Of a DNA stretch of 64,000 nt, positions 44,441 to 55,371 are shown in pieces. The first letter of the stretch is position 1; each line of letters opens with the position of its first letter. Both the position numbers and the translations under genes were made by a program. The DNA is from Pseudomonadota bacterium (GTDB lineage: Bacteria; Bdellovibrionota; FAC87; UBA2466): positions 129,409-193,408 of the forward strand of contig RFNO01000106.1 of the NCBI GenBank assembly GCA_009927165.1, written 5' to 3'. The notes under the pieces were generated by a model. The model searched no databases. It was not told the origin of the DNA and saw only the letters and a program-made list of their open reading frames with translations.

Positions 44441-46033
44441 ATGATTCTCCCCATGCTTGACTCGTTGCGCGATTGGCTCGGCTACTTTTTGCGTTGGGGC
44501 CATCTGATTGCTGGGATCTCCTGGATTGGGAGTTCTTTTTATTTTATTTGGTTGGATAAAGCTCTCACTCCTCCAGAAAAAACCACTGAAGACGTAGAAG
44601 GCGAAGTTTGGATGGTCCACAGCGGGGGTTTTTACCAAGTAGAACGAAGAAAAATCGGTCCCGGTTCAATGCCGCGAACCCTTCATTGGTTTAAGTGGGA
44701 AGCTGCTTTTACTTGGATCACAGGCGTTCTGCTCATGGCTGTGGTTTATTATGCTGGAGGGGGCGCTCTTCTTTTTGATGCGCCTCAAACGTCTGCCAGT
44801 GTTCCTCAAGCAATTGGTTTTTCGCTTTTACTGTTGCCGCTCTCTTGGTTCATCTATGACGGGTTGTGGAATTCTTCGATTGGAAAAAACACCAAAGTCG
44901 CTACGGTTATTTCATTTTTACTCATGGTCGCTTTGGTTTGGGGGCTTTCTCAGTTTTTTGGTGGTCGGGCTGCTTACATGCATGTCGGAGCCGTTTTTGG
45001 CACTCTCATGGTTGCCAATGTTTGGGTAAGAATTTTGCCTGCCCAACAAAAAATGATTGATGCAACAAAAGCTGGAAAAAAGCCTGACTTTACTTTGAGC
45101 GGAAAAGCAAAACTGCGTTCTGTCCACAATAGTTATTTAACTCTTCCGGTCCTGTTTCTCATGTTGAGCAATCACTATCCTATGACTTATGGCAGTGAAA
45201 AAAGCGTTTTGATCCTTCTTCTCTTATTTGTACTAGGGGCGTGTGCTCGGCACTATAAAATCACTAAGGAAAAAGTGGGAATAGTCCCTCCAGCGCTTAT
45301 CGCTTTATCTGTGCTGGGACTTTTTTATTTAACGGTAGAAAAAAACACGGATGAAACTCTTTCCGTTCAAAGTTCAGTTGGTAAAGCGGCGCCTGTTGAT
45401 CTGTCTCAATCAGGTTCGCTCTCTCTACAAGTGCTTTTTACTGGGACTATTTCAGCTCCTAAGAAAATTAAGGTTACTCCTGAGTGCCAATCAGGAAATC
45501 AGGGGGGCTTAATTTCTGAAGAGCTCATCTCTCAAGAAGGTCGCCTGAAAAATGTTTTTCTTTGGATTAGTCAAGGTCTTGAAGGGAAACAGTTTCCGAT
45601 TCCCAATGAAGAAGTAGTGGTGGATCAACGTCAATGTGCGTATCGACCGCATGTGATTGGAGTGAGAGCTGGACAACCGATCACTTTTCTCAATAGTGAT
45701 GCTTTTTTACACAATATCCATACACTCTCAAAACATAACGATAAGTTTAATCTCAGTCTCACTCAGAAAGATCAGAAAGTGACCAGAAAACTCATGAAAC
45801 CTGAAATCATGTTTCGTTCAAAATGTGATCTCCATCCTTGGATGTCAGGATATATCGGAGTAATGGAGCATCCCTATTTCGGAGTAAGTAATGAAAAGGG
45901 TGAAGTGAAGTGGGATCAAATCCCGCCTGGGGTTTACACCCTTTCTGCTTGGCACGAGACTCTAGGAGAAAAACATCAAAAAATAGAAATAAAACCTCAG
46001 ACCCAACATAAAGTGGAGTTTAGTTTTCCTTAG
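44441..46033 (+). CDS. puuD: Membrane-bound urate oxidase (PuuD type) fused to a cupredoxin domain
   Basis: A 530-residue protein. The first 300 residues match PuuD urate hydroxylase: LRWGHLIAGISWIGSSFYFIWLD at the start, MPRTLHWFKWEAAFTWITG, SWFIYDGLWNS and LTLPVLFLMLSNHYP, with about eight to nine membrane helices. Known PuuD proteins then carry a cytochrome c domain. Here there is no CxxCH motif; instead residues about 325-475 form a cupredoxin-like domain with type-1-copper ligands His424, Cys462, His465 and Met468 (DAFLHNIHT and SKCDLHPWMSGYIGV). It is followed by a small Ig-like module (YFGVSNEKGEVKWDQIPPGVY, SAWHETLG). It would oxidise urate to 5-hydroxyisourate and pass electrons through copper. 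ATG at 44453 is an alternative start that begins exactly at the family N-terminus. Confidence 0.85.
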   Translation: MILPMLDSLRDWLGYFLRWGHLIAGISWIGSSFYFIWLDKALTPPEKTTEDVEGEVWMVHSGGFYQVERRKIGPGSMPRTLHWFKWEAAFTWITGVLLMAVVYYAGGGALLFDAPQTSASVPQAIGFSLLLLPLSWFIYDGLWNSSIGKNTKVATVISFLLMVALVWGLSQFFGGRAAYMHVGAVFGTLMVANVWVRILPAQQKMIDATKAGKKPDFTLSGKAKLRSVHNSYLTLPVLFLMLSNHYPMTYGSEKSVLILLLLFVLGACARHYKITKEKVGIVPPALIALSVLGLFYLTVEKNTDETLSVQSSVGKAAPVDLSQSGSLSLQVLFTGTISAPKKIKVTPECQSGNQGGLISEELISQEGRLKNVFLWISQGLEGKQFPIPNEEVVVDQRQCAYRPHVIGVRAGQPITFLNSDAFLHNIHTLSKHNDKFNLSLTQKDQKVTRKLMKPEIMFRSKCDLHPWMSGYIGVMEHPYFGVSNEKGEVKWDQIPPGVYTLSAWHETLGEKHQKIEIKPQTQHKVEFSFP

Positions 46034-46034
46034 T

Positions 46035-47384
46035 ATGAATTTTGCTCTCAAAAGTCAGCGAGTATTATTGCCCAAAAAAGGCCAAAGTCTGGGAGAGTTG
46101 AGCCCAGCTATTGTCTTTATCGAAAGTGGAATCATTCGATCGATTGAGGGACAACTCCCCGCTGAGTATTCGGGCAAGCTGATTGATTTGGGAGAGAAAG
46201 TTCTGATGCCAGGGCTTTGTGATTCTCATGTTCATATGAACGAACCGGGCAGAACTGAGTGGGAAGGTATCGCAACAGCAACCCAAGCAGCTGCTGCTGG
46301 GGGTATTACGACTTTAATTGATATGCCCTTAAACTCCATTCCCCCAACAGTAACCGTAGATGCGCTTCAGCTTAAGCGAAAATCTGCAGAGAAGACTGCT
46401 TATGTGGATTATGGTTTTTGGGGGGGAGTGATTCCCGGAAACGAGAAAGATTTAGAGCCCCTCATTGATGCGGGGATCATGGGTTTTAAAGCATTCATGA
46501 TTGATTCTGGCGTTTCAGAGTTCCCAATGGCCTCAGAAAAAGTTTTGCGGGAAAGCATGCCGGTTTTAGCTAAAAAGGGCGTGCCTTTTCTTGTGCACGC
46601 AGAATTAGAAAGTCCTGTTTCAATAAAGATTGACTCTCATCGAGAATATCATCGCTACTTACAATCTCGGCCCGATCAATGGGAAGTTGAAGCAATTCGT
46701 TTGATGATCCGGTTAGCCCGAGAAACCGGTTGCCGTGTGCATATCGTTCACTTGTCTTCGGCGAAAGCGCTCCAAGATATTCAACAGGCTAAAAAAGAGG
46801 GATTGAAGTTTACTGTGGAAACTTGTCCCCATTATTTGAGCCTTCTTGCGGAAGAGGTGCCTGAAGGGGCCACTCACTTTAAATGTGCTCCCCCCATTCG
46901 AGAACGGAGCAATCAAGAAGCATTATGGCAAGGTCTATCTCAGGGAGTTATCGATTTTATTGTTTCAGATCACTCTCCCTGTACTCCTCAACTTAAAAAC
47001 TTGGAGACCGGGGATTTTGATTCTGCTTGGGGAGGAATTGCTGGCCTCCAATTCAGTTTGTCGGTTATTTGGACTGAAATGACGAAACGACATTTGGCTT
47101 TGCCACTCTTAAGTCATTGGATGGCCGAATCCACTTCTAAATTTCTAAATATTCAAAATAAAACTGGAAGAATTGAAAGTGGCACAGACGCGGATTTAGT
47201 TGTTTTTGATCCCGAAGCTGAGTTTAAACTTAATGTTCGGGATATTTTACATCGTCACCCCGTAACGCCCTATCTCGGAAAAACACTGAAAGGCAAAGTG
47301 GAAAAGACATTTGTTCGTGGCCAGTGTGTATTTGACTCAGGAACATTAAATGGACCTTTAGGAAAAGAAGTGAGGAGAAACTAA
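46035..47384 (+). CDS. allB: Allantoinase
   Basis: A 449-residue cyclic amidohydrolase that opens the ring of allantoin to give allantoate. Metal-binding motif CDSHVHMNEPGRTEWEG is at about residues 63-79, the carboxylated Lys is in GFKAFM, and further His ligands are in FLVHAE and VHIVHLSSA, with the last Asp in VSDHSPC. The SDHSPCTP and ECT-type pattern favour allantoinase over dihydroorotase or hydantoinase. Its ATG follows the puuD stop by one base, and its stop overlaps the next start (TAATG). Position in the operon fits the pathway order. Confidence 0.93.
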   Translation: MNFALKSQRVLLPKKGQSLGELSPAIVFIESGIIRSIEGQLPAEYSGKLIDLGEKVLMPGLCDSHVHMNEPGRTEWEGIATATQAAAAGGITTLIDMPLNSIPPTVTVDALQLKRKSAEKTAYVDYGFWGGVIPGNEKDLEPLIDAGIMGFKAFMIDSGVSEFPMASEKVLRESMPVLAKKGVPFLVHAELESPVSIKIDSHREYHRYLQSRPDQWEVEAIRLMIRLARETGCRVHIVHLSSAKALQDIQQAKKEGLKFTVETCPHYLSLLAEEVPEGATHFKCAPPIRERSNQEALWQGLSQGVIDFIVSDHSPCTPQLKNLETGDFDSAWGGIAGLQFSLSVIWTEMTKRHLALPLLSHWMAESTSKFLNIQNKTGRIESGTDADLVVFDPEAEFKLNVRDILHRHPVTPYLGKTLKGKVEKTFVRGQCVFDSGTLNGPLGKEVRRN

Positions 47385-48424
47385 TGGAAACAAAAATAAA
47401 TGCCCAAAATCCCTTCAATGGATTGATAGATTTGGTTTCAGAGCGAATTGGAGGCAGAGCGCTTCTGACCAATGATGACTTTTTTGCGTCCAAGAATAAT
47501 TTAGTGAAATCTACAGAGCCAGTTTTTATTCCTGGGAAATATACTTCAAAAGGAAAGTGGATGGATGGTTGGGAATCCAGACGGAGACGAACTCCGGGGT
47601 TTGATTGGTGCATCTTAAAGTTGGGCATTCCCGGAAAAATCCAGGGGGTCAACGTGAGTACGATGCACTTCACCGGGAACTATCCTGAGCATTTTTCTTT
47701 AGAAGCAGCTTATTGCCCCAAAGCAGATGCCCCTTCCAATCTGTTGAAGAGCTCTGTCAAGTGGGTCGAGCTGATCGGAAAAACTGCATTAAAAAGTTCA
47801 TGCGATAATTTTTTTTCAGTCTCCAATGAACAATCTTGGACACACGTGCGTTTAAATATCTTCCCAGATGGGGGCGTGGCAAGATTACGACTTTACGGAG
47901 AAGTTACTCCGGATTGGGAAAAACTCAGAAAAACAAAGACTCCTTTCGATCTTTCTGCAATTGCCAATGGAGCAAAAGTCATAACTTGTAATGATAATTT
48001 CTACGGACCCATGAACAACCTGATTTTGCCCGGAAGAGCAGTGAACATGGGAGATGGCTGGGAAACACAAAGAAAGCGAGTTCCAGGACATGATTGGATT
48101 GTCGTAAAACTGGGAACCACTGGGCTGATACGAAAGATTGAAGTAGATACAAATCATTTCAAAGGAAATTACCCTGACACTTGTTCTATTGAAGGATGTG
48201 CTTACCCGGAACGAAATTTAACCCCAGAGCAACTAGCGAAAAAGACTGACCTCAAATGGGTTGAGATACTTCCTCAAACCAAATTGAAGGCCCATTTCCG
48301 CCATTATTTTGATAAAGCGCTTACAGAAGCGGCAAAAAAGAATGGTTTTGATTATGTGCGATTAAACATTTTCCCAGATGGGGGAATAAGTCGCTTGCGA
48401 GTTCATGGGTTGCCATTCAAATGA
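47384..48424 (+). CDS. alc: Allantoicase
   Basis: A 346-residue enzyme that hydrolyses allantoate to (S)-ureidoglycolate and urea. It is made of two related jelly-roll halves: NDDFFASKNNL..WMDGWESRRRRTPGFDWCILKLG..HFTGNYPEHFSLEA in the first and NDNFYGPMNNL..MGDGWETQRKRVPGHDWIVVKLG..HFKGNYPDTCSIEG in the second. Both end in a VRLNIFPDGG(V/I)(A/S)RLR repeat. This double structure is diagnostic of the family. The ATG overlaps the allB stop and the stop overlaps uraD by four bases, so the genes are translationally coupled. Confidence 0.95.
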   Translation: METKINAQNPFNGLIDLVSERIGGRALLTNDDFFASKNNLVKSTEPVFIPGKYTSKGKWMDGWESRRRRTPGFDWCILKLGIPGKIQGVNVSTMHFTGNYPEHFSLEAAYCPKADAPSNLLKSSVKWVELIGKTALKSSCDNFFSVSNEQSWTHVRLNIFPDGGVARLRLYGEVTPDWEKLRKTKTPFDLSAIANGAKVITCNDNFYGPMNNLILPGRAVNMGDGWETQRKRVPGHDWIVVKLGTTGLIRKIEVDTNHFKGNYPDTCSIEGCAYPERNLTPEQLAKKTDLKWVEILPQTKLKAHFRHYFDKALTEAAKKNGFDYVRLNIFPDGGISRLRVHGLPFK

Positions 48425-48936
48425 AAACGTTTTCTTTATCTGAGTTCAACCTGCTTGATAGGCAAGAAGTCCGAAAATCGCTTGTCCATTGTTGCGGTTC
48501 CTCAAGCTGGGTTTCTCAGATGGAAGAGCAACGCCCTTTTGCGAGCATCATGGAAATGCATAAACAGGCATTGCAGATTTGGAGAAAGCTAAACGTTACC
48601 GATTGGAAAGAAGCTTTTGAACACCATCCTAAAATAGGGGATCTGAAAAGTTTGCAGGAGAAGTTTTCTAGCACAAAAGCGTGGGCGGAACAGGAGCAAA
48701 AAGGGAGTGAAGGAGCTTCTTCCACTGTTTTACAGGCACTTGCTTTGGGAAATAAAAACTACGAGAATCGGTTTGGGTATATTTTCATTGTTTGTGCTAC
48801 CGGAAAAAGTGCAGAAGAAATGTTGAGCTTATTGAAACAACGATTAAGCCACGATCCTGAAGTTGAAATCCAAATTGCAGCTCAAGAGCAGGAAAAAATC
48901 ATGATCCTTCGATTGGAGAAACTCATTCATGAATAA
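48421..48936 (+). CDS. uraD: OHCU decarboxylase (2-oxo-4-hydroxy-4-carboxy-5-ureidoimidazoline decarboxylase)
   Basis: A 171-residue enzyme that decarboxylates OHCU to S-allantoin, the third step after urate oxidation. The catalytic His is in FEHHPKIGD, the family signature at about residues 60-68; ENRFGYIFIVCATGKSAEEML is the second conserved block. Length is typical for the single-domain form, with no fused HIU hydrolase. ATGA overlap with alc at the start and an eight-base overlap with the following gene place it firmly in the operon. Confidence 0.92.
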   Translation: MKTFSLSEFNLLDRQEVRKSLVHCCGSSSWVSQMEEQRPFASIMEMHKQALQIWRKLNVTDWKEAFEHHPKIGDLKSLQEKFSSTKAWAEQEQKGSEGASSTVLQALALGNKNYENRFGYIFIVCATGKSAEEMLSLLKQRLSHDPEVEIQIAAQEQEKIMILRLEKLIHE

Positions 48937-49276
48937 ACGAAGTCCAATAACAACCCACGTCTTGGATGTCAGCAGTGGAAGACCAGCAAGCGGCCTACGA
49001 TGTATATTGGAGCGGCAAAACTCTCAAGGAACTTGGGATAAATTGGGGGAATCAAGTACTAATGAAGATGGCAGAATTGAAGATTGGTGGAGCGGCCCAA
49101 TTCAGGGGGGAGTCTATCGGATTGAGTTTTTTACCCAAGCTTATTTTGAAGCTAAAAAGATCTCCACTTTTTACCCTTCAGTGCTAGTTCAGTTTGAAAT
49201 TACGGAACTCAATCAACACTATCATGTCCCTTTGCTTTTGAGCCCGTTTGGATATTCAACTTACCGAGGAAGCTGA
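48929..49276 (+). CDS. uraH: 5-hydroxyisourate hydrolase (transthyretin-like)
   Basis: A 115-residue enzyme that hydrolyses 5-hydroxyisourate to OHCU. The N-terminal motif TTHVLDVSSGRPASGLRCIL and the C-terminal YSTYRGS (the canonical YRGS end) are both complete, and His in QHYHVPLLLSPFGYSTYRGS completes the active site. It is a tetrameric transthyretin-fold protein; no signal peptide is seen, so it should be cytoplasmic, although the PuuD catalytic side may also face the cytoplasm. Starts within uraD and ends four bases before the next chosen start. Confidence 0.94.
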   Translation: MNKRSPITTHVLDVSSGRPASGLRCILERQNSQGTWDKLGESSTNEDGRIEDWWSGPIQGGVYRIEFFTQAYFEAKKISTFYPSVLVQFEITELNQHYHVPLLLSPFGYSTYRGS

Positions 49277-49280
49277 AACT

Positions 49281-50630
49281 ATGAAAACTTCGTTTACTCA
49301 AGAACTGATCCAATCAACTTTAAAAAACTTAACTGAGGCCAATCTTAAACATGCCCACTGTTATCCGGGAGGGTCTCACGATCGCCAGCCCGTCCATACG
49401 GTTTATGGGGGCGCCCAAATCTTCTCCAGTGATACTGCCAAAAAGATGAGCGGAGTCGCTTTGAGGACGTTAAAAGAATACGCCCCTGATGCCCTTATGT
49501 TGAGACAAGCTTTGGGAGAGGAACAGGGAAATCCAGAGCTGTGGAACACAATTTACCAACGGATTGTGAAAAAATTGGAAGACGAAGCAGTCGAGGATTT
49601 TAGAATCGACTATGAAGATGGGTATGGTACACGACCTGATTCCGAAGAAGACGGCCATGCTGAAAGCGGCGCTAAAGAAGTAGCCAAGGGTATGAACCAG
49701 AGCTCGTTGCCTCCTTTTATTGGGATCCGTATCAAACCGTTCTCTGAGGAATGTCACCGGCGAAGTATTCGAACGTTAGACATTTTCGTTTCCACGCTAT
49801 TAAGTGAAACATCTGGAGAATTGCCTTCCCACTTTGTCGTCACTTTGCCCAAAGTAACCCATCCGGAGCAGTGTGCTGCTCTAGTTGAGCTATTTGAAGC
49901 ATTGGAAAAAAAGCATCGATTAGAGCCCGGGAGTTTGAAGTACGAATTCATGGTGGAAACAACGCAAGCTATTTTGAATGTTGAAGGTCAGTCACCCTTA
50001 AGAAGTTTTGTGGAAGCTGGGAAGGGCCGGTGTGTTGGCGCTCACTTTGGAACTTATGATTACACTGCTGGGTGTGGGATTACCGCTCATTATCAGACCA
50101 TGGTGAATCCGGTTTGTGACTTTGCAAAACATGTCATGCAAGTGTCTCTCATGGGATTACCCATTCTTCTGTCCGATGGGGCTACGAATGTGATGCCTGT
50201 CGGACCTCATCGCGCCCAAGAGGGAGGGGTCCTTACTGCCAGTCAATTAAAAGAGAACCGAGCTGTGGTGCATCGGGCCTGGAAATTAAGTTATGATCAT
50301 ATCCGCCATTCTCTTGCCACAGGCTTTTACCAGGGATGGGATCTTCATCCAGCTCAGCTTCCTATTCGTTATGCTGCTACTTATGCCTTCTTCTTAGAGT
50401 CCTTGGGATCAGCGTCCGATCGTTTGAAAGGCTTTGTAGAAAAAGCAGCTAAAGCAACTCTGTTAGGAGATGTCTTTGATGACGCTGCGACTGGTCAGGG
50501 ATTGCTGAATTTCTTTTTGAGAGGGCTCAGTTGTGGAGCTATTACTTCGGAGGAAGCTCTCAACACAGGATTAACTTTGAAAGAAATTCAAAGTCGATCG
50601 TTTATGAAAATTGTAAAAGGTAGAAGTTAA
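49281..50630 (+). CDS. CitE/HpcH-like (DUF6986-type) TIM-barrel lyase or synthase, last gene of the urate operon
   Basis: A 449-residue soluble protein, start chosen at 49281 because GAGGAAG lies eight bases before it. The fold is that of the CitE/malate-synthase superfamily: DFRIDYEDGYGTRP, IGIRIKPFSEE with an Arg, FVVTLPKVTHPEQ, a Glu in MVETTQAIL and an Asp in HFGTYDYTAG, which are placed like the two magnesium ligands of that superfamily. The closest pattern I recall is the DUF6986 family found in actinobacterial purine-catabolism clusters. It is not a standard malate synthase. In this operon it could condense glyoxylate with an acyl-CoA or act on ureidoglycolate; both are inference. It overlaps the convergent xdhC by four bases. 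Confidence 0.7.
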   Translation: MKTSFTQELIQSTLKNLTEANLKHAHCYPGGSHDRQPVHTVYGGAQIFSSDTAKKMSGVALRTLKEYAPDALMLRQALGEEQGNPELWNTIYQRIVKKLEDEAVEDFRIDYEDGYGTRPDSEEDGHAESGAKEVAKGMNQSSLPPFIGIRIKPFSEECHRRSIRTLDIFVSTLLSETSGELPSHFVVTLPKVTHPEQCAALVELFEALEKKHRLEPGSLKYEFMVETTQAILNVEGQSPLRSFVEAGKGRCVGAHFGTYDYTAGCGITAHYQTMVNPVCDFAKHVMQVSLMGLPILLSDGATNVMPVGPHRAQEGGVLTASQLKENRAVVHRAWKLSYDHIRHSLATGFYQGWDLHPAQLPIRYAATYAFFLESLGSASDRLKGFVEKAAKATLLGDVFDDAATGQGLLNFFLRGLSCGAITSEEALNTGLTLKEIQSRSFMKIVKGRS

Positions 50631-51445
50631 GAGCGTTCTTTACTCAGTTCATCTCGCTTTTGGAGAAGCTGAGCAGCAATGCTGACTGCAATTTCACTCG
50701 GAGCATTGGTTCCTATCGGAAGTCCTACCGGACAATGGATTAATTGGACTTGAGAATCCAAAAATCCTTCTTCTTTTAAAGTGTTTCGTAATGTTTTGGC
50801 TTTTTGAACACTTCCAATTACACCTAAAAAGAGGGGATTTCCTCTCTTTAGAATTTCTCTCACAATCGGCAAGTCAGTAAAGTGTCCTTGAGTAATGCAC
50901 AAATAAAACATGTTTTCTGGAAGCTGACTCACATAAGCAGGCAAATCCGGAGTGCACACTTTTTTCAGGTTTGATTTATTCGGTAGTTTGCTAAGCCATT
51001 CTTCACGAGTATCAATGCACCAAAGATTGCATTCGAATGATGCAACTAAAGGAATAACTGCTTGCACTACGTGACCCGCTCCAAACACGGCAATGTTCCA
51101 ACTTCGTCGGGAGGCAGTTTCATAAAAAAGAGTGGCAAAGCCCCCACAAACCATATTTAAGTCTTGTTTCAAATCGTAGCGAATCAGTTGCGGAGCAACC
51201 GGAGTTTTCAAATCGGTGTTTGAAGCTTGTTCAAGAAGGGTTTTAGAATGCTGGATGGCTTGGGCTTCTAAGCGGCCGCCCCCCACGGTGCCCCAAGCAA
51301 TCCCCTCATGAGTAATGATGGCTTTGGCTCCCATATCTTGCGGAACATGCCCTTCCGGTTGAACCAGTGTCACTGTTACGAAGGGGGTGCCTTGAATAGA
51401 AAGTTCGTGTGCTTTCAACAAGTATTCCTGAATGAAACGGCTCAT
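50627..51445 (-). CDS. xdhC: Xanthine dehydrogenase accessory protein XdhC
   Basis: A 272-residue protein that inserts the sulfurated molybdenum cofactor into xanthine dehydrogenase. The N-terminal XdhC/CoxI domain has FVTVTLVQPEGHVPQDMGAKAII, WGTVGGGRLEAQAI and DLNMVCGG with the Cys that binds the cofactor. A Rossmann-like half follows (IAVFGAGHVVQAVIPLVASF, CIDTREEWLSKL). Its start overlaps the end of xdhB (ATGA type overlap) and its stop overlaps the urate operon's last gene by four bases on the opposite strand. Confidence 0.93.
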   Translation of the reverse strand: MSRFIQEYLLKAHELSIQGTPFVTVTLVQPEGHVPQDMGAKAIITHEGIAWGTVGGGRLEAQAIQHSKTLLEQASNTDLKTPVAPQLIRYDLKQDLNMVCGGFATLFYETASRRSWNIAVFGAGHVVQAVIPLVASFECNLWCIDTREEWLSKLPNKSNLKKVCTPDLPAYVSQLPENMFYLCITQGHFTDLPIVREILKRGNPLFLGVIGSVQKAKTLRNTLKEEGFLDSQVQLIHCPVGLPIGTNAPSEIAVSIAAQLLQKRDELSKERS

Positions 51446-53835
51446 AGAGACGAAAAATCCTCCGGGCTTAGGGCTCGTAAAACTCTTTCGGCAGTGGCGG
51501 GTATAGCGAGAGGAATAACTTGGTTTCCTCTAAAACTCATGATGGCGTCTCGAATTGCTGTCCAAACTGAAAGACATAACAGAAGAGGAGGTTCACCTAC
51601 CGCTTTAGTGCCTTTGACATTAACTGTGTTCCCATCGTTGTGAACTAAATTTGCATTAAAAATTCGGGGTGTGTCTTGAATACTGGGAATTTTATAAGTG
51701 CTGGGAGAGTGGCTAAGAAGGAACCCGTCATCGTTGTAAACCAAGTTTTCGGTGGTTACCCAGCCCATTCCTTGAATGAATCCGCCCGTTACTTGCCCTA
51801 AATCCAGGCCATAGTTAATGGGACGTCCTAGATCCATCAGGATATCTACTCGGCGAACTTTTACTTCTCCAGTCCAACGGTCGATCTCTACTTCGCTGGC
51901 TGCGACTCCTTGGGTAAAGTAAAGAAAAGCGCGTCCTTGTCCCTTAATCTTGTCAAAGCCCAAGTGGGGAATTCTAAAATGCCCATATTCGCTTAAGGAA
52001 ATACGATTCAAATAGGCTTCCCTCACTAACTCAACAAAAGGAATACTGAAAGAAGTCTTCCGAATCTGTACATGAGAGTTATGAAAGCTCACTTCAGAGA
52101 GCGCAGTTTCAATGTCATTTCCCAATACGACCTCGGGCATCGTCCCTAGTCCAGCAGTTTTGTAAGCCCAGGACTCCTTTGGAATGGTTTCCAGTCGAAG
52201 AGCTAGAGCGGCTAAGCGTTTTTTGATTTCAAGACAAGCTTTCTGAGCAGCAGCACCATTGATGTCTGTGCCGCTGGAGGCAGCAGTTGGAGAAGTGTTG
52301 GCATTTTTCTCTGTTGTAGTGGGCATCATGCGCACTGAGCTGATGGGGAGTCCTAATTCCTCCGCTACAATGGTGGCGATCCGTGTGTTCACTCCTTGCC
52401 CCATTTCCACAGCTCCGGTAGAAACTTGGACACTTCCGTCCGTGTGAACAATCACTAACGCATTTCCTTGGTTTAAGAATTTTGTCGTGAAAGAAATGCC
52501 AAACTTAACGGCAGTTAAGGATAGGCCTCTGGGATTTCCACTTTCTAAAAGTGCTTTTTGATTCCACTTTTGAATCTCTGTTCTTCTGGCTCGGTAATCG
52601 CAATCATTTTCCAGTTTTTCAAAAAGACCCGGTAGAAGATTGTTTTCCAAAGCTTGCCCGTAATGAGTGGTGTCTTCCCCGGGTTTGTAACAGTTCAGTT
52701 TTCGGATATCGAGAGCATCTTTTTGAGTTGCTCTAGCAATATCCTCCATGATTGATTCGATCAGAGCCACTCCTTTGGGCCCACCAAATCCTCTGAAAGC
52801 AGTATGGGGATGATAATTTAGTTTACAAACTTGTCCTTTCACCCGCATGTGAGCAACGTAATAGGCATTGTCACTATGAAGCATTGCTCTTTCCATGATA
52901 GCAGTGGAAAGATCCGCATAAGCTCCGCCATCAGAAAATAATTGGGCATCTAATGCCATTAGCTTTCCTTCCGATGTAAAACCTACTTCATAGTGAATCT
53001 GGAAAGGATTTCTTTTCCCAGTGATGATCATGTCGTCATCTTTGGTAAGAACCAATCTAGCGGGACGACCGGTTTTTTGAGAAATAAGAGCCGCATACGC
53101 TGCAATAGGGGCTGCTTGGGATTCCTTTCCTCCAAAGCCACCACCTAAGCGTTTTGCAATACAGACAACATCTTTAAAGGCGAGACCGCAAGCTTTGGCC
53201 ACCACATGCTGGGTTTCTGTCGGATGTTGAGTGGAGGAGTGAACTTCCAATTGACCGTCTTCTTTCGGATAAACAACGGCCGCCTGACTTTCCAAATAAA
53301 AGTGATCAGCTCCTTGGATCTGAACCACACCTTTCAATTTATGAGGCGAATTTTTTAAGGCCTCTTCAACATTTCCTCTTGCTATCGTCCGCTGTTCGCC
53401 AATGAAGCTTTTTTGAGTAATGGCTTCATCAATAGTTTTAATGGCAGGAAGCTTTTCCCACTTCACTTCAACGGCTCTTAATCCCTCTGCTAGCGCTGAT
53501 TTGGTCTCAGCTGCTAGTACTGCAACTACTTCTCCTGCATACTGAACTTCCTCTGTAGCAAGAATAGGCTGATCTTGAAAAATTGTTCCCCAATGATTGT
53601 GAACAACATCTTGAGCTGTAACTGCAGCAACAACTCCTGGAACTTTTAGCGCAAAGTTCAAATTCAGCGTCTTCATTTTAGCATGAGCATAAGGGCTAAA
53701 AACAAGTCCGCACCAGAGTTCGTGTTTTAAAAGAGGACGGTCATCCACGTATTCTGAACGTCCCGTCACATGGGTCCAAGAAGAATCATGAGATGCGCTA
53801 CCGGAATCTTTAAGAGTGTGAAGCGAGTCAGCCAC
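51442..53835 (-). CDS. xdhB: Xanthine dehydrogenase, molybdopterin-binding subunit
   Basis: A 797-residue large subunit that oxidises hypoxanthine and xanthine to urate at a molybdenum centre. Cofactor motifs are GGGFGGKES, FRGFGGPKG, EMGQGVNTRIA and the catalytic Glu in KAVGEPPLLL. A GTG start at 53835 is preferred: GAGG sits six bases before it and MADSLH matches neither a longer start nor an overlap problem; ATG at 53847 is the alternative. It overlaps xdhA by eight bases (GTGGCTGA), indicating coupled translation. Confidence 0.94.
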   Translation of the reverse strand: MADSLHTLKDSGSASHDSSWTHVTGRSEYVDDRPLLKHELWCGLVFSPYAHAKMKTLNLNFALKVPGVVAAVTAQDVVHNHWGTIFQDQPILATEEVQYAGEVVAVLAAETKSALAEGLRAVEVKWEKLPAIKTIDEAITQKSFIGEQRTIARGNVEEALKNSPHKLKGVVQIQGADHFYLESQAAVVYPKEDGQLEVHSSTQHPTETQHVVAKACGLAFKDVVCIAKRLGGGFGGKESQAAPIAAYAALISQKTGRPARLVLTKDDDMIITGKRNPFQIHYEVGFTSEGKLMALDAQLFSDGGAYADLSTAIMERAMLHSDNAYYVAHMRVKGQVCKLNYHPHTAFRGFGGPKGVALIESIMEDIARATQKDALDIRKLNCYKPGEDTTHYGQALENNLLPGLFEKLENDCDYRARRTEIQKWNQKALLESGNPRGLSLTAVKFGISFTTKFLNQGNALVIVHTDGSVQVSTGAVEMGQGVNTRIATIVAEELGLPISSVRMMPTTTEKNANTSPTAASSGTDINGAAAQKACLEIKKRLAALALRLETIPKESWAYKTAGLGTMPEVVLGNDIETALSEVSFHNSHVQIRKTSFSIPFVELVREAYLNRISLSEYGHFRIPHLGFDKIKGQGRAFLYFTQGVAASEVEIDRWTGEVKVRRVDILMDLGRPINYGLDLGQVTGGFIQGMGWVTTENLVYNDDGFLLSHSPSTYKIPSIQDTPRIFNANLVHNDGNTVNVKGTKAVGEPPLLLCLSVWTAIRDAIMSFRGNQVIPLAIPATAERVLRALSPEDFSSL

Positions 53836-55282
53836 GAAGAACCTCATCACCAAATTTCTTGAACAGATTTTTTACCAATACTTTTCGGTATTGTTGACTT
53901 CCCCGTAAATCACTTTGGGGCTTTACTGAATTTGCAAGAAGTTGGGCCACATCCTGAAAAAGTTGAGGCGTCATGATTTGCTGTTTTAACGCCAGTTCAG
54001 CAGCAGGTACTCGAATAGGTGTGGCAGCTACTCCGCCCAAAGCAATTCGAGCTTCTTGTACTTTTATAATTCCTTTATCTTGGGTCGTGACAAGTGAAAA
54101 TGCCCCGCTGACTGTGCTAATATCCAGGTCCTTTCTTTGGCTTGATTTGTAAAGTCTCACAATCTCATTTTTCAAGTGGGGTCGGAAGGAAACGTGGGTG
54201 ATAATTTCGTTCGGTTTAAGGGAAAGGCTTTTATAACCCAAGTAGAGTTCGGTTAGGGGAATCAGTCGTTTTTCAATAGTACCGTTTTTAGGGCCTTGAC
54301 TAGCTACGTGCACTTGGCCGTCTGAAATCAATAGGAAAGGGAGGGTGTCGCCAATGGGAGAAGCATTCGCAATATTTCCGACTAAAGTTGCTACGTTTTT
54401 AATTTGAGGCGATGCGAACAGATCGAGAAACTTCGAAAATTCAGGATTGGTGCTGGAAACCGCTCGGCGCAGCTCAGCAAGGGGAACTCGAGCTCCCACA
54501 GTAATACAACCGGGCGTTTCCTGAATTTCATAAAGGTCCGGTATCAAGTGCAGACTCAACAAAGCTTTTGGAATGGGTTTTCCTTTGTTGGTTTGGACAC
54601 CAAAATCCGTAGCGGCCCCTAACACTCGAAAACCGGGGTTTTCGTTGGTGAAAGCCACAGCCTCACTGAGTGAGGCCGGAGCAAAGAAAGTATGAGTTTG
54701 AGTTGTGATGAGAAGGCTTTTTGTCTGAGCCGAGATCAAGTCGGCAGTGAAATCAGGTTTTAAGTAACGCTGGGAAAGAGAATGAGAACTAGAAGTCTGA
54801 GTAGCAAGAGCTGCATCAATAATGGGTTGATATCCCGTGCATCGACAGAGATTTCCCGTGAGATAGTTCTGTGCAGTTTTGGCACTGAGTTGTTTGTGTT
54901 TTTCAAAAGCGCCACTCAAAGCCATGATGAAACCAGGGGTGCAGAAACCACATTGGGAACCATGGCATTCTCTCATGGCCTTTTGGACCGGTGAAAGTTC
55001 ATTTCCCCTTTGAATTCCCTCAACTGTAACTAAGTGCGATCCATCCATTTGGGCGACAGTGGCGATACAAGAATTCATGGCTTCAAAAACTAGAGGAGAT
55101 TCTTTAAACTTAGGAAAAGCTCTGAGAACAGTACAAGCGCCGCAATCCCCTTCCGCGCAGACGATTTTGGTACCGGTTAATCCCGCTTCTTTTCTCAGCC
55201 AATCCCCCAACATCAGAAGAGTTTCCGGACCCCGAACTTCTTTACGAAGACCATTGAGGTAAATTAAACAATAATCGCGCAT
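53828..55282 (-). CDS. xdhA: Xanthine dehydrogenase, 2Fe-2S/FAD subunit
   Basis: A 484-residue small subunit carrying both [2Fe-2S] clusters and FAD. Cluster I is bound by CAEGDCGACTVLR, cluster II by CHGSQCGFCTPGF and NLCRCTGYQPI. The FAD domain (about 185-365) has LGAATDFGVQ and ATLVGNIANASPIGD. The CO-dehydrogenase flavoprotein C-terminal domain follows. The start at 55282 is chosen because AGGGG sits at the right distance; the open frame extends to 55321 but has no homology there. It opens the minus-strand operon xdhA-xdhB-xdhC and diverges from an unknown membrane protein gene. Confidence 0.93.
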   Translation of the reverse strand: MRDYCLIYLNGLRKEVRGPETLLMLGDWLRKEAGLTGTKIVCAEGDCGACTVLRAFPKFKESPLVFEAMNSCIATVAQMDGSHLVTVEGIQRGNELSPVQKAMRECHGSQCGFCTPGFIMALSGAFEKHKQLSAKTAQNYLTGNLCRCTGYQPIIDAALATQTSSSHSLSQRYLKPDFTADLISAQTKSLLITTQTHTFFAPASLSEAVAFTNENPGFRVLGAATDFGVQTNKGKPIPKALLSLHLIPDLYEIQETPGCITVGARVPLAELRRAVSSTNPEFSKFLDLFASPQIKNVATLVGNIANASPIGDTLPFLLISDGQVHVASQGPKNGTIEKRLIPLTELYLGYKSLSLKPNEIITHVSFRPHLKNEIVRLYKSSQRKDLDISTVSGAFSLVTTQDKGIIKVQEARIALGGVAATPIRVPAAELALKQQIMTPQLFQDVAQLLANSVKPQSDLRGSQQYRKVLVKNLFKKFGDEVLRG

Positions 55283-55371
55283 GTGGACCCCTTTTATACC
55301 ATGGGAATCCGAGAAATCCATGGTGGGGAGCTGCTAATTCTGATAAACGAAGTGAAATTTGGGCCTATAAC

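Follow-up and report, generated by a model that had tools for sequence, protein, structure and literature searches.

A PuuD-type membrane urate oxidase with a predicted type-1 copper domain in place of cytochrome c

The window analysed here is a stretch of 64,000 nucleotides from contig RFNO01000106.1 (assembly GCA_009927165.1) of a bacterium of the Bdellovibrionota. An open reading frame with its ATG at 44441 and its stop at 46033 encodes a protein of 530 amino acids, and the genes that follow it belong to urate breakdown. The features of the protein and its surroundings, in window coordinates, are these:

44441-46033, + strand: puuD-type urate oxidase with a C-terminal cupredoxin, 530 aa (open reading frame; PF06181; fusion kept in relatives)
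44441-45334, + strand: 8-helix membrane domain, DUF989/Urate_ox_N, residues 1-298 (PF06181; model helices; retained invariant residues)
45335-45412, + strand: linker, residues 299-324 (pLDDT lower at about 301-320; alignment variable)
45413-45865, + strand: cupredoxin (predicted type-1 copper) domain including its N-terminal part, residues 325-475 (amicyanin match; Foldseek; high pLDDT)
45485-45637, + strand: Cys349 (45485-45487) and Cys399 (45635-45637), possible disulfide pair (conserved in 37/38 and 38/38)
45710-45712, + strand: His424, predicted copper ligand (38/38; aligns with the first His ligand of amicyanin, PHNV)
45824-45844, + strand: CDLHPWM loop with predicted copper ligands Cys462, His465 and Met468 (38/38; spacing of amicyanin CTFHPFM)
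45866-46030, + strand: C-terminal beta module, residues 476-530, with invariant WHE at 504-506 (model; CarboxypepD_reg/fn3_3 in homologues)
46035-47384, + strand: allB, allantoinase (TIGR03178, E=1.3e-165)
47384-48424, + strand: alc, allantoicase (TIGR02961, E=1.8e-130)
48421-48936, + strand: uraD, OHCU decarboxylase (TIGR03180, E=4.8e-52)
48929-49276, + strand: uraH, 5-hydroxyisourate hydrolase (TIGR02962, E=4.1e-41)
49281-50630, + strand: DUF6986 (aldolase/malate-synthase-like) protein of the urate operon (PF22484, E=1.8e-176)
50627-55321, - strand: xdhC, xdhB and xdhA, xanthine dehydrogenase, the urate source (Pfam XdhC, MoCoBD, FAD_binding_5/Fer2)

The N-terminal part of the protein is the full-length DUF989/Urate_ox_N domain of PuuD. 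The PF06181 profile covers most of residues 1-300 (E=4.6e-104), and the AlphaFold model of the whole chain (pLDDT 89.7, pTM 0.85) contains eight helices (residues 4-41, 85-104, 121-144, 151-172, 175-210, 217-243, 255-274 and 282-298). Every residue that at least 95% of cytochrome-c PuuDs conserve is present, among them R18, H21, H60, K85, E87, R176, R226, N230 and H245; other copper forms keep nearly all of these. H21, H181, H229 and H245 are conserved histidines that could conceivably serve a haem b in the membrane domain. The chain contains no CxxCH haem motif after the membrane domain, where PuuD has its cytochrome c, and no haem c motif was found elsewhere in the chain. An earlier note, made from the letters of the DNA, had described a PuuD-like domain of about 300 residues followed by a part with no CxxCH but with His424, Cys462, His465 and Met468 arranged as type-1 ligands. 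Both observations hold: the numbering from the ATG is correct (codons at 45710, 45824, 45833 and 45842), and the ligands align with those of amicyanin. The small Ig-like module that the note placed at the end of the protein is real, although it is no separate fusion piece and corresponds to a C-terminal beta module that freestanding homologues of the copper domain also carry. Its Trp504-His505-Glu506 motif (45950-45958) is invariant in the fusions examined, and His477 is nearly so.

The C-terminal region matches the amicyanin profile TIGR02657 weakly (E=0.0014) and amicyanins of the PDB at E~0.002 in sequence searches. Its score of 19 against the curated TIGR02657 cut-off of 110.2 bits does not place it among amicyanin equivalogs; to judge by the sequence, the domain may work like amicyanin, and it is not amicyanin itself. 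The Pfam Copper-bind score (16.6) also falls under its cut-off (21.2 bits). A Foldseek search with the AlphaFold model, the modelling that the earlier note had proposed, bears out the beta-barrel of cupredoxins: amicyanins, plastocyanins and other copper proteins of this fold are retrieved with a best E of 6.7e-7, and target-normalised TM scores are about 0.7 for amicyanins and reach 0.82 for one plastocyanin. The order and spacing of the His-Cys-His-Met set are those of a type-1 site. All four ligands are invariant in the 38 aligned copper-type sequences, which reach down to about 34-40% identity, and the nearby His404, His427 and His432 vary across the same set. A CuA-type site is ruled out by the single Cys in the ligand loop. 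Sequence and fold together make a strong case for a copper domain that is predicted to bind the metal at these four residues; the conserved Cys349 and Cys399 could form a disulfide.

The gene set around puuD spans the steps from xanthine to ureidoglycolate and includes uraH and uraD, the genes with which PuuD is associated. Classical uricase (PF01014) was not found in the assembly, which is 95.9% complete. Most of the fusion loci examined lie among urate or allantoin genes, and distant copper-type fusions also adjoin uraH or other genes of urate metabolism. Urate as the substrate, of which the earlier note had little doubt, is therefore well supported by the operon, the retained PuuD residues and the lack of a PF01014 uricase. 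The DUF6986 protein (49281-50630), which has weak similarity to malate synthase and aldolase, recurs in these operons, and its recurrence suggests a role in glyoxylate or ureidoglycolate handling. A further arrangement of purine-breakdown genes is seen at locus L113, where a frame of 1536 aa (L113:7285-11895) downstream of puuD and uraH joins malate synthase, OHCU decarboxylase, a beta-lactamase-fold domain and two allantoicase repeats (Pfam assignments for L113 only), and thus several steps of purine breakdown and glyoxylate use in one chain; similar frames occur at L116-L119, L122-L124 and L127-L129 in Bdellovibrionaceae-type genomes.

The fusion is a lineage feature and no oddity. Six close homologues, found by contig search, are full-length fusions (five in Bdellovibrionota-like bins and one in a Myxococcales bin), and with dozens of distant homologues in independent assemblies they rule out a chimeric assembly, an artefact or chance. 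Both domains occur in one open frame in at least 62 of 369 Bdellovibrionota genomes, other genomes encoding a PuuD with cytochrome c or only the membrane domain, and in 7 of 331 Myxococcota genomes, where two more loci encode the two parts in neighbouring but separate genes. The search for fused domains that the earlier note suggested shows that they are not rare. No fusion was seen in the sampled Pseudomonadota (399 genomes), Gemmatimonadota (150) or the phylum of genome G375 (195); the two long Gemmatimonadota frames that were examined both lack a PuuD domain. PuuD membrane domains that lack both a cytochrome c and a cupredoxin are found at L115:5775-6647, L113:6038-6958, L114:5260-6168, L126 and L031, several of them in urate operons.

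On the unrooted tree of the membrane domain, the window protein belongs to a clade of six members (support 100/100) nested in a group of cytochrome-c PuuDs (100/96), and the nearest relative of this clade, L009, is a cytochrome-c form (84/79). A large Bdellovibrionaceae-type copper clade and the copper forms of Myxococcota lie elsewhere. The AU test rejects a tree that unites all copper forms in one clade (p=0.0027), which indicates that the C-terminal carrier has changed more than once; for a union of just the window clade with the Bdellovibrionaceae-type copper clade the rejection is not firm (p=0.07). The copper-domain tree, also unrooted, does not reject a single clade of fused forms (p=0.47), which share the HPWM loop, so that the module may have spread by recombination of PuuD genes or by repeated recruitment from close freestanding genes. 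Because the trees are unrooted, any direction given to a particular change would be interpretive. The earlier note spoke of a different branch of membrane urate oxidation; the difference is supported, but it is not one branch: copper forms have originated or been swapped on more than one occasion, and the window clade stands nearest to cytochrome-c PuuDs.

Gene order is kept across these changes. The order puuD, allB, alc, uraD, uraH, DUF6986 occurs with the copper form in the window, L003 and L005, with no C-terminal domain at all in L115, a member of the same family, and with cytochrome c in L009 and L045; L011 has cytochrome c and the order from puuD to uraH, with no DUF6986 gene detected. 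The simplest reading is that the C-terminal part was replaced within a standing operon. A host devoid of cytochrome c is ruled out as the cause of the swap, since the window's genome has several cytochrome c candidates, one of them on the window's own contig.

Freestanding homologues share the whole module of about 215 residues, including the C-terminal beta module (PF13620/PF14686), and their neighbours are genes of cytochrome oxidase or of haem-A assembly. Among the best-scoring loci, which are no random sample, the gene lies directly upstream of COX2-COX1 in 10 of 10 Gemmatimonadota cases, with COX3 next wherever the stretch reached that far. At L207 a cytochrome b/c complex stands on one side of it and COX1-COX3-COX2-CtaA on the other. 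In the genome of the window (L120) and at seven other Bdellovibrionota loci it comes before ctaA-ctaB, with SCO1 in the stretch except at L173. Cupredoxin and beta-module genes upstream of COX2-COX1 in Gemmatimonadota were recorded at L188-L197, L201-L206, L208 and L209, and apparently encode an uncharacterised oxidase-linked copper protein. The only haem-copper oxidase match in the window's genome is of the aa3 type and has a subunit II with the CuA motif. The adjacency of freestanding homologues to genes of cytochrome oxidase and haem-A assembly favours electron delivery to the aa3 oxidase, and lends indirect support to the earlier suggestion that the copper leads to a cupredoxin-coupled oxidase. 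The same link could reflect copper handling, given that oxidase-linked loops mostly read HGWM and fused ones HPWM, and that the neighbours in Bdellovibrionota are assembly genes.

We consider it likely, with a probability of roughly 75%, that the protein is a PuuD-type membrane urate oxidase that has a type-1 copper domain substituted for its cytochrome c and feeds electrons into the respiratory chain, most likely at the aa3 oxidase. The neighbouring xanthine dehydrogenase would make urate, which the eight-helix domain would oxidise to 5-hydroxyisourate on the cytoplasmic side, and UraH, UraD, allantoinase and allantoicase would carry the pathway onward. The electrons would travel through the membrane domain and reach the copper at His424, Cys462, His465 and Met468. 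The eight helices of the model and the Nout-Cout topology published for PuuD (PMC4562309) would put the C terminus on the side where cytochrome c lies, which makes the copper domain presumably periplasmic. From the copper, electrons would pass to the aa3-type oxidase directly or via a small carrier. Copper binding, activity on urate, the route and the terminal acceptor are all predicted from the combined sequence, model and neighbourhood data. A bolder version, put forward tentatively at somewhat less than even odds, sees PuuD as modular, its exit swapped repeatedly between haem c and a cupredoxin of an aa3-linked family; the urate oxidase would then require no c-type haem itself and would pass electrons directly into CuA.

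An alternative keeps the copper as the exit and has it reduce a soluble cytochrome c, not the oxidase itself; ordinary PuuD presumably passes electrons on from its cytochrome c domain in the same way. In sequence, the nearest relative of solved structure is amicyanin, which donates electrons to a cytochrome c in methylotrophs, and with cytochrome c candidates in the genome direct donation from the copper to CuA is not required. The oxidase genes beside the freestanding homologues weigh against this route, which we regard as possible but less likely than not. Placing the cupredoxin-like domain off the electron path, as a device for copper storage or delivery or as a structural part, with another acceptor or oxygen used for urate, would fit the ctaA, ctaB and SCO1 genes of haem-A and copper assembly that adjoin freestanding homologues in Bdellovibrionota, and also the L115 protein, which does without the domain in an identical operon. 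It accords poorly with four invariant ligands, with a domain that takes the place of a redox domain and with Gemmatimonadota homologues that precede structural COX2 genes, and is unlikely.

The sub-threshold Copper-bind score would fit a degenerate cupredoxin fold without copper, yet the ligands persist over all 38 sequences despite their divergence and the best fold matches are amicyanin and plastocyanin, which makes such a fold very improbable. A substrate other than urate is also very improbable. Short DUF989 proteins at L154:4026-5671 and L155:3950-5552, each followed by a separate gene for a copper lipoprotein-like protein and situated outside purine clusters, offer a precedent, and that pairing probably serves a different substrate; these relatives, however, lack the loop bearing H60, K85 and E87, which the window protein keeps at the head of a urate operon in a genome with no PF01014 uricase found.

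PuuD was assigned by genetics, and its cytochrome c served as its defining feature. The copper-type PuuD is a real and recurrent architecture of this known enzyme, and apparently an undescribed one: the searchable literature, with subscription journals and preprints outside its reach, holds no mention of a cupredoxin-type PuuD. The earlier note named as fatal to its reading a haem c in another part of the chain, or a record of many PuuD-cupredoxin fusions already described. Neither was encountered, the latter within that literature. The 2015 study reported CxxCH as strictly conserved in all PuuD sequences, with CxxCH and Met of the C-terminal cytochrome c invariant, and found that azide, a classical respiratory inhibitor, did not specifically inhibit PuuD (PMC4562309). 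CxxCH is not universal in PuuD: the rule breaks down in a large part of one phylum, where annotation as a cytochrome c enzyme would consequently be wrong. Production of the copper form could dispense with the machinery of cytochrome c maturation. One operon that occurs with cytochrome c, with copper or with no domain is a natural set for testing the electron route from PuuD to the respiratory chain, and the finding also points to an apparently undescribed cupredoxin family beside cytochrome oxidase genes.

Among known systems, the window protein is closest to PuuD itself (COG3748, DUF989/Urate_ox_N), represented by Atu2314 of Agrobacterium fabrum (PMC4562309). The two have in common the membrane domain with its conserved residues and eight helices, the urate operon and a C-terminal redox domain that should lie in the periplasm; that domain is a cytochrome c with CxxCH in Atu2314 and a cupredoxin with predicted type-1 copper ligands here. 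With amicyanin (TIGR02657; PDB 1aac, 1sfd, 1id2) the C-terminal domain shares the fold, the upstream His and the Cys-x2-His-x2-Met loop, CDLHPWM against CTFHPFM. It differs in its low sequence identity, its tether to a urate oxidase in the membrane, a longer N-terminal part, the extra C-terminal beta module and a possible conserved disulfide. The freestanding cupredoxin and beta-module proteins (for example L120:7971-8630, L201 and L207) are about 30-40% identical over the module of about 215 residues and unfused, and mostly carry CDVHGWM where the fusions have CxxHPWM.
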